Of a DNA stretch of 20,436 nt, positions 1-5,711 are shown in pieces. The translations under genes and the position numbers were made by a program. Below the pieces are notes generated by a model, which worked only from the letters and a program-made list of their open reading frames with translations, ran no database searches and was not told the DNA's origin. Each line of letters opens with the position of its first letter. Positions within the stretch are counted from its first letter, which is position 1. The stretch lies in IMG/VR virus record IMGVR_UViG_3300017739_003776, positions 1-20,436 of that record. One strand, 5' to 3'. The DNA is from a virus.

Positions 1-126
1 TTGAATGAGATGTACGAAAGTACTTCAAAAGAAATTGAGAATTTACATAGAGAACTTGATTCTCAAATTAATAAACTAGAATCTAGATTGGTAAAACAAT
101 TTAAAGATTATAATTACAATAAATAA
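1..126 (+). CDS. 3' end of a coiled-coil protein (5' end outside window)
   Basis: Frame 1 is open from the first base to a TAA at 124-126, giving the last 41 residues of a protein whose start lies left of the window. The segment is rich in Glu, Lys, Asn, Leu and Ile with heptad-like spacing (a run around EIENLHRELDSQINKLESRL), which predicts a C-terminal coiled coil. Nothing identifies a family. It sits 26 nt before the clamp-loader ATPase gene on the same strand, so it is probably co-transcribed with the replication block. It does not resemble the C-terminus of a sliding clamp. Confidence 0.6.
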   Translation: MNEMYESTSKEIENLHRELDSQINKLESRLVKQFKDYNYNK

Positions 127-152
127 TTAACCAATTTAGGACTCTCAATTTT

Positions 153-1076
153 ATGAAAGAACATTCATTATTAGTAGAAAAATATAGATCAAAAGATCTA
201 ACAGAGTATGTAGGAAATGAACACATTAAAACACAAATACAAAAATATTTAGACCAAGATGATATTCAAAACTTTATATTCTATGGTCCTGCTGGTACTG
301 GAAAAACGACTTTGGCAAAACTTATTGTTAATAATCTGGAGTGTGACTACCTTTACATCAACGCTTCTGATGAACGAGGCATCGAAACTATTAGGGATAA
401 AGTCACAAGTTTCTCAAGCACTATATCGTTTAAAAAGATTAAAGTTGTCATCCTTGATGAGGCGGATTTTCTCACCATCCAAGCACAAGCATCTCTAAGA
501 AATACAATAGAAACGTTTTCCCGCAACACACGTTTTATCCTCACTTGTAATTTCATAGAAAGAATAATAGATCCGCTTCAATCAAGGTGTCAAACACTAA
601 AAATAGTACCACCAAGTAAAAAGGAGGTAGCAAAGCATTTATCCAACATACTAATAGATGAAGGTATAAAAGTAAATCTTAAAGATCTTGCCCACATAGT
701 TAATAAACATCATCCGGATATACGAAAAATGCTAAATACAATTCAGTTATCAACTAAAGATAATGAATTAGTATTAGATGAATCTATTTTAGTATCATCA
801 AATTACATTAAACAAATTATAGAAGAGCTAAAACAAAAGAAAACCGATTTTAGAAAACTAAGGCAAATAATAGCCGATTCTCAAGTACGTGATTTTGAAG
901 AATTATATAGAGCATTATTTGATCATGCCTCCGAATATGCCATTGGTAGAGAAGGAAGTGTAGCAATAATTTTGAATGAGCATCAATATCATTCTAACTT
1001 TCGTATTGACAAAGAAGTCAATATAGCAAGTGCATTAGCAAAAATAATTGAAATAAAAAAACCCCAAGTGATATGA
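153..1076 (+). CDS. 44: Clamp loader large subunit, T4 gp44-like AAA+ ATPase
   Basis: This 307-aa protein is the ATPase that opens and loads the sliding clamp onto primer-template DNA. Visible motifs are Walker A GPAGTGKT (residues 45-52), Walker B VVILDEAD (98-105), a sensor-1-like TCN (131-133) and the SRC arginine-finger motif (144-146), in the order seen in RFC/gp44 proteins. T4 gp44 is about 319 aa, so the length fits a full gene. The N-terminal EKYRSKDLTEYVGNE matches the usual start of clamp-loader ATPases. A weak AGGA lies about 11 nt before the ATG, the nearest thing to a Shine-Dalgarno in the window. The stop overlaps the next start (ATGA). The partner small subunit lies 0.8 kb downstream. 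Bases about 330-600 look less A+T-rich than their surroundings. Confidence 0.93.
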   Translation: MKEHSLLVEKYRSKDLTEYVGNEHIKTQIQKYLDQDDIQNFIFYGPAGTGKTTLAKLIVNNLECDYLYINASDERGIETIRDKVTSFSSTISFKKIKVVILDEADFLTIQAQASLRNTIETFSRNTRFILTCNFIERIIDPLQSRCQTLKIVPPSKKEVAKHLSNILIDEGIKVNLKDLAHIVNKHHPDIRKMLNTIQLSTKDNELVLDESILVSSNYIKQIIEELKQKKTDFRKLRQIIADSQVRDFEELYRALFDHASEYAIGREGSVAIILNEHQYHSNFRIDKEVNIASALAKIIEIKKPQVI

Positions 1077-1822: not shown

Positions 1823-1908
1823 TTTATATAGTAATTACAATGTCAATAGGATTAGGTTTAGTAGGAATCTGGGTATATCAAGGTGAAAAAGAAAGAAGAC
1901 AAGATTAA
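1819..1908 (+). CDS. 29-aa single-pass membrane peptide
   Basis: The ATG at 1819 overlaps the DUF2061 gene's TGA (ATGA) and the frame ends with TAA at 1906-1908. The peptide has one hydrophobic stretch (IYIVITMSIGLGLVGIWVY, residues 2-20) followed by a charged tail EKERRQD, so it would sit in a membrane with a positive-rich end. The last 26 nt overlap the GTG start region of the gp62-like gene. The start-stop overlap and membrane-like composition support a real small gene. With so few residues, chance cannot be excluded. Confidence 0.5.
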   Translation: MIYIVITMSIGLGLVGIWVYQGEKERRQD

Positions 1909-2317
1909 GAATATTTTTGACTGGTTACAACATATAACGTTGTATAAAACACCTGCTTCAGAATTTACGGATAACGACTGGGAAAAATTTAATTCATACA
2001 TGGTGCATCGATTTGTTAGTATGCATATATATTACATTGAAATCGCAGATTATGCGCAAAGTATGTTACCAACTATGAAAAAACAAATATATAATTTTTA
2101 CAAAGAAATGTTACCTAAAAAGAAAGTCTGGTTACAGTATGTTAAATCAAAAACTGAAACTATAAACAAAGATTTAGTAGAAGACATAGCAAAATACTAT
2201 GAAGTTGGAGCAGCAGATGCTCTTTCGTATATTGCAGTAATGACTAAAGAAGAGATACCTATTATATTAAGTGAAATGGGTAAAGATAAAAAAGAAATAA
2301 AAAAGTTACTAAAATGA
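1883..2317 (+). CDS. 62: Clamp loader small subunit, T4 gp62-like
   Basis: 144 aa. The C-terminal half aligns by eye with T4 gp62: DLVEDIAKYYEVGAADALSYIAVM (from about residue 98) parallels the gp62 segment with KRYQVNTNDAINY, followed by a stretch resembling PLVLKEL. gp62-type subunits have no ATPase site; they bridge the gp44 ring in the clamp loader. T4 gp62 is 187 aa, so this is a short member. The start is GTG at 1883, inside the preceding membrane-peptide gene; the next in-frame ATG at 2000 would remove the conserved N-terminal helix. No Shine-Dalgarno precedes it. The stop overlaps the next ATG (ATGA). Confidence 0.8.
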   Translation: MKKKEDKIKNIFDWLQHITLYKTPASEFTDNDWEKFNSYMVHRFVSMHIYYIEIADYAQSMLPTMKKQIYNFYKEMLPKKKVWLQYVKSKTETINKDLVEDIAKYYEVGAADALSYIAVMTKEEIPIILSEMGKDKKEIKKLLK

Positions 2318-3069: not shown

Positions 3070-4017
3070 ATGGCCAAAACACCTGCTATAGTAAAGGAGA
3101 TACAATTATCCCCTAAAAGAGAATTAGACTACTCTTATCAAAAAAATATTTCATATTCACAATATACAATGTGGAAGAAATGTCCTAAACAATGGGCTTT
3201 ACAATATAGAGACGGTCATAAAGTTTATACACCTAGTATTCACACTGTATTTGGGAAAGCATTACATGAGGCTTTTCAACATTATATTAAAGTAATGTAT
3301 GAAACAAGTGCTGCAGCAGCTAATAGAGAAGATATATTAGAAATACTTAAGGATCAATTAAGAGCTCACTATCAAGAAGAGTATAAGAAAAATAATAAAC
3401 AACATTTTTCTAACCCAGGTGAACTAAGTGAATTTTATCAAGACGGAGTTGAAATTTTAAATTACCTAAAAAAACATAGGGGCAAATATTTTTCAAAACG
3501 AGGTTGGCATTTAGTAGGAATAGAAACTCCCATACTAATGCCTCCTGTAAAATATAACCCTAATATTTTATTTATGGGTTATTTAGACATTGTAATGTAC
3601 AATGAAAACTTAAATAAATTTAAAATAATAGATATTAAAACATCTACTAATGGTTGGAAATTAAATTATGTTAAAAATGATGAAGATAAACAATTCCAAC
3701 TCATACTATATAAAAAATTCTTTGCAGAACAGTTTGGAATAGATATAAAGGATATTGATATTGAGTTCTTTATTACCAGAAGAAAAGTATACGAAGATGG
3801 AGATTACCCACAGAAACGATTTCAAATGTATTCTCCTCCTTCAGGTAAAATAAAAGTAAATAGAGCAACTAAAGCAATACAAGAATTTATGAGTGAATGT
3901 TTTATAAAAAATGAATACTCAACTAAAGAAATGTCACCAAATCCCTCAAAATGGAATTGTGGGTTTTGCCCTTATAAAACGGATAAAAAATTATGTGGAT
4001 TAGGTGAACATTTTTAA
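3070..4017 (+). CDS. PD-(D/E)XK nuclease, Cas4/RecB type, with Fe-S cysteines
   Basis: 315 aa. Nuclease motifs are GKALHE (H66), GYLD (D173), IDIK (D188, K190) and Q210-LILY, the typical order for the PDDEXK_1/RecB-like fold. Four cysteines, C38 (in CPKQWALQY) and C297-x2-C300-x8-C309, match the N-terminal one plus C-terminal three layout that holds a 4Fe-4S cluster in Cas4 and AddB nucleases. The likely role is a metal-dependent DNA exonuclease in replication, recombination or host DNA breakdown. No cas1 or cas2 gene is nearby, so this is not a CRISPR locus. The gene is the last of the replication block; a 47-nt gap with regulatory-looking sequence follows. Confidence 0.87.
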   Translation: MAKTPAIVKEIQLSPKRELDYSYQKNISYSQYTMWKKCPKQWALQYRDGHKVYTPSIHTVFGKALHEAFQHYIKVMYETSAAAANREDILEILKDQLRAHYQEEYKKNNKQHFSNPGELSEFYQDGVEILNYLKKHRGKYFSKRGWHLVGIETPILMPPVKYNPNILFMGYLDIVMYNENLNKFKIIDIKTSTNGWKLNYVKNDEDKQFQLILYKKFFAEQFGIDIKDIDIEFFITRRKVYEDGDYPQKRFQMYSPPSGKIKVNRATKAIQEFMSECFIKNEYSTKEMSPNPSKWNCGFCPYKTDKKLCGLGEHF

Positions 4018-4019
4018 TA

Positions 4020-4035
4020 CAATACGTATGTATTG
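4020..4035. repeat. Perfect inverted repeat, possible operator
   Basis: CAATAC and GTATTG form a perfect 6-bp dyad around a GTAT centre, 3 nt after the nuclease gene and one base before the late promoter box. It is too A/T-rich and short, and lacks a T-run, so it is a poor terminator. Its place at the promoter of an RHH gene suggests an operator for that protein, by inference only. Confidence 0.4.
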
Positions 4036-4036
4036 A

Positions 4037-4044
4037 TATAAATA
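4037..4044 (+). promoter_or_regulatory. T4-type late promoter box (TATAAATA)
   Basis: An exact TATAAATA, the consensus -10 of T4 late promoters used by the gp55/gp33/sliding-clamp system, lies in the one notable intergenic gap, 20 nt before the ATG at 4065. This spacing leaves room for a start site and a short leader. The octamer also occurs by chance inside genes here (for example near 7112 and 10124), so its location rather than its presence is the support. It would drive the RHH gene and the glycan island. Confidence 0.5.
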
Positions 4045-4064
4045 GTTTTATTAAATTAAAGATT

Positions 4065-4253
4065 ATGAGCAATAAAAAAGAAAAAACACTAACTAGTGTT
4101 AAAATACAAAGTGATTTATTTCAAGATTTTAAAATAGAGTGTGTAAAACGTAAATTTTCCTTCCAGAAACTTGCCGACCGCGCTATCCATTTGTATCTTA
4201 CAAATGATGATTTTAGAAAAACAATTAACAATCACAATAACCTCGAGTTATAA
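4065..4253 (+). CDS. Ribbon-helix-helix DNA-binding protein (62 aa)
   Basis: 62 aa. Residues 8-14 (TLTSVKI) fit the short DNA-contacting beta strand of RHH proteins, followed by two helices (LFQDFKIECVKRKF, 18-31; FQKLADRAIHLYLT, 33-46) and a basic-polar tail. RHH proteins bind DNA as dimers, usually as repressors. It is the first gene after the late promoter box and inverted repeat, so autoregulation or control of the downstream glycan genes is plausible but not shown. The gene's centre (about 4150-4200) has more G+C than its surroundings. No Shine-Dalgarno is visible; 12 nt separate it from the next gene. Confidence 0.72.
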   Translation: MSNKKEKTLTSVKIQSDLFQDFKIECVKRKFSFQKLADRAIHLYLTNDDFRKTINNHNNLEL

Positions 4254-4265
4254 AAACAAAAATAA

Positions 4266-5711
4266 ATGAATAAAGATTTTAAGTATCTTCCTCCAAATAA
4301 AAGGAAGAAAATACTCTTAATATGTGATGATATTAGAGTACATTCGGGAATAGCTACAGTAGGTAAAGAAATAGTATTACATACTTGTCAACATTTTAAT
4401 TGGGTACAAATAGCGGGAGCAATAAAACATCCTGATAAAGGTAAAGTTTTTGATTTATCTAAAAGTATTAATCAAGAAACAGGTTTAAATAATTCTAATG
4501 TTAAATTATTTCCTGTTGATGGTTATGGTAATATAGAATTAGTAAGACAAATTATAAAACAAGAAAAACCAGATGCATTAATGCTTATTACAGATCCAAG
4601 ATATTTTTCTTGGTTATTTAATGCTGAAGGAGAGATAAGAAAAAATATACCCATTATTTATTTAAACATTTGGGATGACTACCCAGCTCCTTTATATAAT
4701 AAAGCATTTTATGAGTCATGTGATTTATTAATGGGGATTTCAAAACAAACAGTAAACATTAATAATATTGTTTTAGGTAATAAAGCTAAAAACAAAATAA
4801 TAAAATATTTACCTCATGGTTTAAACCATAAAATTTACCGTCCTTTAGAAACTACAGAAGAGTTAGATGCTGTGGAAAAAATGAAATTAGATTTATTTGG
4901 CAAAGATGAAGTTAATTTTGTTTTATTTTTTAATTCAAGAAATATTAGAAGAAAACAAATCCCGGATGCAATGTGGGCATTTAAAATGTTTTTAGATAGT
5001 TTACCTAAAGAAAAAGCAGATAAATGTAGATTTTTACTTCATACTGAAAAAGTGCATGAAGCCGGTACAGATTTAGAAGCTATAAATGAATTATTATTTG
5101 GAGAAAAATACCCAAATGCTATAGTAATTGATGAAAAAAGATGGTCAACACAAGAGTTAAATATGTTATATAATATAACAGATTGTCAAATTCTTTTAAC
5201 ATCAAATGAGGGATGGGGATTAACACTAACTGAAGCAATGTTAGCAGGTAACCCTATTATAGCTAATGTTACAGGAGGAATGCAAGATCAAATGAGATTT
5301 GAGGATGAAAATGAAAAATGGTTTACACCTTCCCTAGAAATACCATCTAATAATACGGGTAAATATAAAAAACATGGTGAATGGGCTTTCCCATGTTATC
5401 CAACTTCTAGATCAATTCAGGGGTCACCTGTTACTCCTTATATCTGGGATGATAGATGCAAAGCCGAAGATGCAGCTGATAGAATAAAAGAAGTTTATGA
5501 CTTAGGACCAGAAAAAAGAAAAGAATTAGGTCTTAAAGCTAGAGAATGGTGCTTAAGCGAAGAAGCAGGATTTACAGCTGAACACCAGGGTAAAAGATTT
5601 ATAGAATTTACTAATGAATTATTCAATACTTGGGAACCAAGAGAAGCATTTGAAGTAATAGACACAGACGAAGATATTAGAAAAATACAAACACATAATT
5701 TAGTATATTAA
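4266..5711 (+). CDS. GT-B glycosyltransferase (GT4-like)
   Basis: 481 aa, cytoplasmic, no signal peptide. The C-terminal Rossmann domain holds the GT4-type E-x7-E signature, EGWGLTLTE (E315, E323), followed by AGNPIIANVTGG. The N-terminal domain begins with KILLICDDIRVHSGIATVGK (15-34), a Gly-containing loop typical for acceptor-side GT-B domains. Residues 183-188 (PHGLNH) and 221-229 (FFNSRNIRR) match the linker and start of the donor domain. The protein would transfer a sugar from a nucleotide donor; donor and acceptor cannot be read from sequence. It opens the glycan island. One base separates its stop from the next GT-B gene, which suggests that the pair act in sequence. Confidence 0.85.
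   Translation: MNKDFKYLPPNKRKKILLICDDIRVHSGIATVGKEIVLHTCQHFNWVQIAGAIKHPDKGKVFDLSKSINQETGLNNSNVKLFPVDGYGNIELVRQIIKQEKPDALMLITDPRYFSWLFNAEGEIRKNIPIIYLNIWDDYPAPLYNKAFYESCDLLMGISKQTVNINNIVLGNKAKNKIIKYLPHGLNHKIYRPLETTEELDAVEKMKLDLFGKDEVNFVLFFNSRNIRRKQIPDAMWAFKMFLDSLPKEKADKCRFLLHTEKVHEAGTDLEAINELLFGEKYPNAIVIDEKRWSTQELNMLYNITDCQILLTSNEGWGLTLTEAMLAGNPIIANVTGGMQDQMRFEDENEKWFTPSLEIPSNNTGKYKKHGEWAFPCYPTSRSIQGSPVTPYIWDDRCKAEDAADRIKEVYDLGPEKRKELGLKAREWCLSEEAGFTAEHQGKRFIEFTNELFNTWEPREAFEVIDTDEDIRKIQTHNLVY

Follow-up and report, generated by a model that had tools for sequence, protein, structure and literature searches.

Late promoters of phage T4 carry the word TATAAATA and depend on the proteins gp55, gp33 and gp45; at promoters of this type, transcription starts about 6 nt downstream of the box. 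Published passages place the T4 late box at -13 to -6, and describe the late promoter CTAAATA of the T4-like phage Aeh1 as a word that shifted along with a divergent gp55 (passages of PMC1524935). T4 late promoters are described as showing no conservation at -35 (a passage of PMC2988020). Cyanophage S-PM2 and other cyanophages carry NATAAATA, and middle genes of cyanophages and of RB49 have both early and late promoters (passages of PMC2984593). In Bacteroidota, the sigma-A promoter takes the form TAnnTTTG (a passage of PMC9723704).

The phage group analysed here resembles T4 in placing an AT word of 8 bp shortly before late genes, without an upstream box, and in carrying genes for a gp55-like sigma factor, a sliding clamp and a clamp loader. 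It differs from T4 in that enrichment is seen for TATTTATA, or for TATGTATA at some sites, and not for TATAAATA. As in Aeh1, at least as far as the cited passages describe it, the late word is shifted, although the letters and the host group are different. Within this setting, we propose that a 47-nt gap upstream of an RHH-like gene is probably the head promoter of an RHH-glycan operon, and a variant of T4-type late promoters.

The window and its gene neighbourhood

The window, that is, the whole stretch of DNA analysed, is a virus record of 20,436 bases containing gp44-like and gp62-like genes, a PD-(D/E)XK nuclease gene, an RHH-like gene and two glycosyltransferase genes (Table 1). The nuclease stop codon occupies 4015-4017, and from the RHH ATG at 4065 nearly gapless genes run to the end of the window. 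A sequence-only reading of this DNA had taken them for sugar genes; the family search covered the two glycosyltransferases, and the remaining downstream genes are glycan-like by eye. The same reading had called the gap the longest in the window, which is correct if a 29-aa frame starting at 1819 is counted as a gene; by ORFs of at least 50 aa, the interval 1823-1882 is longer (60 nt). Between the gp44 and gp62 genes, positions 1319-1822 encode a protein of 167 aa that carries a DUF2061 membrane domain at its C-terminal end (2.7e-22). The word ATTAACCA precedes gp44 (window 126-152), and is enriched in upstream regions of the marine lineage of relatives, hereafter REL (7 versus 0.41 expected).

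Table 1. Positions of genes and sequence elements in the window, counted from its first base
Feature	Position	Strand	Remarks
Clamp loader large subunit, gp44-like	153..1076	+	phrog_168, 2.4e-77
Clamp loader small subunit, gp62-like	1883..2317	+	phrog_225, 4.1e-14; start codon uncertain
PD-(D/E)XK nuclease gene	3070..4017	+	Pfam PDDEXK_1, 2.9e-18; upstream of gap
47-nt gap, proposed promoter region of the RHH-glycan operon	4018..4064	+	
Dyad CAATAC-GTAT-GTATTG	4020..4035	.	proposed earlier; perfect in window only
AATACGTATG, window copy of TATA[C/T][G/T]TAT[A/G]	4021..4030	+	one base off; weak
TATAAATA	4037..4044	+	kept in window's close clade, lost in L009
RHH-like gene, 62 aa	4065..4253	+	Arc-like PHROG in 25/34 homologs
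First glycosyltransferase of the operon	4266..5711	+	Pfam Glycos_transf_1, 5.4e-09; adjoins RHH in 237/240 loci

Searches with the RHH protein found at least 593 relatives in viral contigs, the best 80 of which were fetched, and two further queries added the Immutovirus lineage and others. The nuclease gene lies directly upstream of the RHH gene in 232 of the 238 loci with room for it, and a glycosyltransferase gene lies directly downstream at the frequency given in Table 1, where some of the contigs behind the 240 loci came in through several queries. The order nuclease, RHH, glycosyltransferase is also found in the cultured Flavobacterium phage Immutovirus.

A conserved element upstream of RHH genes

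We observed the word TATA[C/T][G/T]TAT[A/G] in 94 of 119 distinct RHH upstream regions, with 3.5 expected from Markov resamples, and the element starts 23-45 nt 5' of the RHH ATG. These 119 regions were obtained from 241 loci by merging those with an identical last 45 nt and dropping those shorter than 60 nt. Each region was assigned to the first class that it fitted. In the 84 REL regions, the strict forms were TATATGTATA (33), TATACGTATA (11), TATATTTATA (10) and TATACGTATG (6), the remainder comprising 18 looser forms and 6 regions with none, while the 35 regions of the Immutovirus lineage contained TATATTTATA (25), TATATGTATA (9) or no form (1). The strict word is thus missing from 25 of the 119 regions, and 7 of those are without any classed form. 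On the REL profile, the window copy scores 7.7 bits and ranks eighth within the window; the RHH sites of G001, G003 and Immutovirus rank 10, 9 and 11, respectively, and the rank for G010 is void because the ORF caller misplaced the start.

The element remains before the RHH gene where extra genes separate it from the nuclease gene (L039, L205 and L207), and a near form, GATATGTATA, occupies this position in L077. In L075 (5561) and L185 (2543), a GIY-YIG endonuclease-like gene, recognized by eye, stands between a near form of the element and the RHH ORF. As judged from these arrangements, the element behaves as the head of the RHH-glycan operon. The GIY-YIG-like insertions are found in two separate lineages.

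A conserved, putatively regulatory element is present in the gap, and it differs from both words to which the sequence-only reading had drawn attention. That reading had described a regulatory gate made up of a dyad and a T4-type late box. The letters are as claimed, with a single A at 4036 between the two words, and the idea of a gate survives in so far as the gap appears to be a conserved regulatory site heading the RHH and glycan genes; the flagged words do not form its core. Among nine alignable sequences, all 6 pairs of the dyad form in the window only, and the arms in the other eight retain 4 or 5 of the 6. The closest relatives of the window have CTATACGTATG where the window has CAATACGTATG, and the same single change perfects the dyad of the window. 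Perfect 6-bp inverted repeats with loops of 0-8 nt numbered 134 in the window against 136.2 in ten shuffles (22 against 14.3 for loops of exactly 4), and at least one repeat with a loop of 0-8 nt arose in 42% of shuffled copies of the 47-nt gap. In view of this chance level, the unconserved arms and the predicted RNA fold of the gap (z = -0.98), the dyad was dropped as a hairpin or operator. No sigma-70-type promoter or terminator was listed within 4018-4064.

Promoter words and late-transcription proteins of the group

We searched for promoter motifs in nine REL contigs and the complete Immutovirus genome using a simple ORF caller, word counts and an EM motif finder, with the labels 'early' and 'late' taken from gene content and not from expression. 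Among the long contigs of the Immutovirus lineage (G011-G017), G011 and G013 were read whole; G005 was read by pattern only. Two motifs were found, an early-type motif, TTTGG-N-TTCGTATATTCAC, and a late-type motif, TATTTATA. The early-type motif is strong in REL contigs G001-G010 and in Immutovirus, with 74 intergenic occurrences of TCGTATAT against 1.5 expected. The counts of TATTTATA upstream of starts, taken over all genes and not late genes alone, were 26 in REL, 25 in Immutovirus, 18 in G011 and 26 in G013, where second-order resamples gave 7.6, 2.8, 3.1 and 3.8, respectively. Corresponding counts for TATGTATA were 14 (2.0 in resamples), 1 (0.5), 1 (0.5) and 0 (0.8). The late-type word precedes the tail sheath and tail tube genes in G001 and gp20 in Immutovirus, and the estimated fraction of upstream regions containing it is 0.72 among 33 from the late region of Immutovirus. 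We did not find TATTTATA in print as a phage promoter word in a thin search on phage promoters and Bacteroidetes-phage late promoters. A further, partly palindromic word, TATGTATAA[T/C]CGTTATA, occurs near the end of a late-looking region at G001 76502, G009 33222 and G006 27633; it precedes a gene for a secreted-looking protein in G001 and G009, and a different small gene in G006.

The same counts bear on TATAAATA, which the sequence-only reading had proposed as a late box. It is very unlikely that this word serves the window's own clade as a genuine late box of the T4 type, even though it is the exact T4 word, is kept in the near clade (L010, L011, L013, L022, L029, L035 and L055), and occurs in 27 of the 119 RHH upstream regions against 9.9 expected. 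By our reading, that excess comes mainly from the window's close clade and from palindromes of the Immutovirus lineage. The word is broken in L009, which has an RHH protein 100% identical to that of the window, and on both strands of the window it occurs 9 times, with a mean of 10.76 in shuffles, 8 of the 9 inside ORFs. Sense counts upstream of starts were close to expectation in all four sets (9 against 9.8 in REL, 7 against 4.1 in Immutovirus, 3 against 3.5 in G011 and 7 against 4.8 in G013). Its raw rate upstream exceeds the genic rate in all four, as does that of any AT-rich word there. Given the lack of enrichment upstream of genes and the chance level in the window, TATAAATA was rejected as the late box.

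The RHH element and the late word TATTTATA have a TAT-N-TATA frame in common, as well as the absence of a TTGG box at nearly all of their sites. The central base is G in 41 of 50 REL RHH sites as against 7 of 31 other (late) REL sites, a count that is conditioned on the regular expression, leaves out the window (L001), and includes a control (7 G, 24 T) counted by hand. A flanking A is present in 43 of 51 REL RHH sites and in 12 of 40 others, a count free of such conditioning. The preference for G at RHH sites, in a position where late sites carry T, means that they may be another class.

Could the gap instead hold a host promoter of the sigma-A type, with TTTG at -33 and TAnnTTTG at -7? The AT core of TTTGG-N-TTCGTATATTCAC, the early motif of the group, is similar, and this motif fits the Bacteroidota class as far as the cited passage defines it. 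Early-type sites also overlap the element at a second location, the Hsp20 operon described below (L293, L294 and L296-L298). The RHH element, unlike the Bacteroidota sigma-A promoter, has no upstream box: a TTGG (-33) box accompanies 57 of 94 early sites and 2 of 99 late sites, and it is missing at 90 of 96 RHH sites (present at 6). We consider a sigma-A promoter in the gap highly improbable.

Scanning with the profile showed that the RHH element also lies before an Hsp20 operon, behind a clamp-like gene, and its supposed restriction to the RHH gene was consequently abandoned. The core starts 83-103 nt 5' of the Hsp20 start. Of 17 Hsp20 loci found, three were too short and three partial; the element, with the same G/T alternation, was present in 11 of 11 with enough upstream sequence, some of them near-duplicates. 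In L293 and L294, TTTGG stands 24 nt before TATATTTATA, and in L296-L298 an early-type site abuts TATATGTATA, both assessed by eye. This overlap of early- and late-like words recalls the middle genes of cyanophages and RB49, as the cited passages present them, with the likeness here being one of sequence only. From the element to the Hsp20 start, REL phages have a conserved leader of about 80-95 nt (L284 2907-3000, L116 4759-4845 and others) with two short predicted hairpins, which may be a regulatory RNA; the structure is weak, with 8 pairs over 8 sequences. Rfam searches of the window and two 20-kb stretches gave three tRNAs, in L098 only.

The sequence-only reading had linked the clamp loader to T4-like late transcription, and the parts for this are present, the gp44 and gp62 genes in the window itself and a gp55-like sigma and a PCNA-fold clamp in relatives. 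The window's own genome is a fragment, and the sigma is known from relatives: REL contig G004, Immutovirus, G011 and G013 share it, and their four proteins are homologous. With the sigma profile phrog_234, matches were obtained in 4 of 12 records, most of them weak, with a best value of 2.1e-5 and with two control bacteria matching too; the value for the G011 protein was 8e-4. Sigma70_r2 was above cut-off for the G004 protein only, and the Immutovirus protein, immuto26A_153, taken alone matched no sigma family in PHROG or Pfam. The REL clamp-like gene before Hsp20 was left unnamed by PHROG and Pfam, but its AlphaFold model matches PCNA chains with E near 1e-7 (pLDDT 60.6, with 98 of 246 residues under 50). 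The T4 clamp profile of PHROG matched none of 12 records, Immutovirus included, and was silent on the control as well.

The element, its position and recurrence, the gene order, and the presence of sigma-, clamp- and loader-like genes in the group are all computed observations. From them we infer the promoter role, the sigma that reads the element, and the timing. A promoter in the gap would head an operon running from the RHH gene through the glycosyltransferases to the glycan genes. Its working core would be TATA[C/T]GTAT[A/G] at 4021-4030, and neither TATAAATA nor the dyad; the element would be a variant of the group's late-type promoter (TATTTATA, without a -33 box). Recognition would fall to a gp55-like sigma of the phage acting with host RNA polymerase, and the phage's sliding clamp, once loaded onto DNA by the clamp loader, would assist. 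Because the Hsp20 operon is headed by the same element, both operons, which lie on either side of the clamp-loader and nuclease genes, would respond to one switch. For a large group of phages that includes a cultured Flavobacterium phage, these results supply early and late promoter words that can be tested. They also suggest that TATTTATA or TATGTATA can take the place of the T4 late box without loss of the sigma, clamp and loader genes. If the proposal is true, an island of glycan genes with this kind of promoter and a repressor-like gene at its head would directly exemplify the coupling of sugar-gene control to replication.

The RHH protein and its possible operator

The Arc-like repressor PHROG matched by most homologs of the RHH protein (Table 1) gave a best value of 8.7e-06. 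Pfam RHH_10 matched 3 of 34 homologs, below cut-off, and unrelated families match as often. The predicted model has two RHH-like helices and no strand, and had no match in Foldseek or VIA; a profile search of solved structures with the RHH protein returned no RHH. The LTSVK strand region is invariant in the 34 homologs, a point in favour of a different reading of the gap, in which the element is chiefly an operator for repression by the RHH protein, directed at the RHH operon itself and perhaps also at that of Hsp20. Such an operator may overlap a promoter.

The likeness to Arc-like RHH repressors lies in the small size of the protein, the Arc-like PHROG match and, in Immutovirus, a palindrome before the RHH gene (product immuto26A_89). 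This palindrome, TATATTTATATATAAATATA at 48953-48972, is 20 bp long and lies 12 nt 5' of the RHH ATG; no other AT-only palindrome with 9-bp arms (spacer 0-2) occurs in the 160 kb of the Immutovirus genome. After sites were merged at 90% identity and only those fitting the regular expression were kept, 12 of 12 dereplicated sites of the Immutovirus lineage had arms of at least 7, as against 36% in shuffles, and autoregulation by the RHH protein is plausible in this lineage. The form TATACGTATA is also a perfect palindrome. REL sites, however, differ from those of Arc-like repressors in showing no inverted-repeat excess (12% versus 18% in shuffles), no AT-only palindrome with 9-bp arms was found in G011 or G013, and the same element lies before Hsp20, far from the RHH gene. 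The repressor role is putative here, and we regard a primarily operator function, the main alternative to the promoter reading or an overlay on it, as possible but rather doubtful.

A combination of the two functions is a speculative extension that we consider unlikely. The RHH protein would be a middle-phase switch acting at TATATGTATA elements, each overlapping a variant late promoter, at the heads of the Hsp20 and RHH-glycan operons, and would so tie the surface-glycan island to replication via the sliding clamp, in a layout kept from marine to Flavobacterium phages.

Two relatives of the RHH gene were found in genome_contigs (L090 and L091), in records labelled as a bacterium MAG and a Woesearchaeota MAG. 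Both are probably misplaced phage contigs, since they carry this phage RHH gene.
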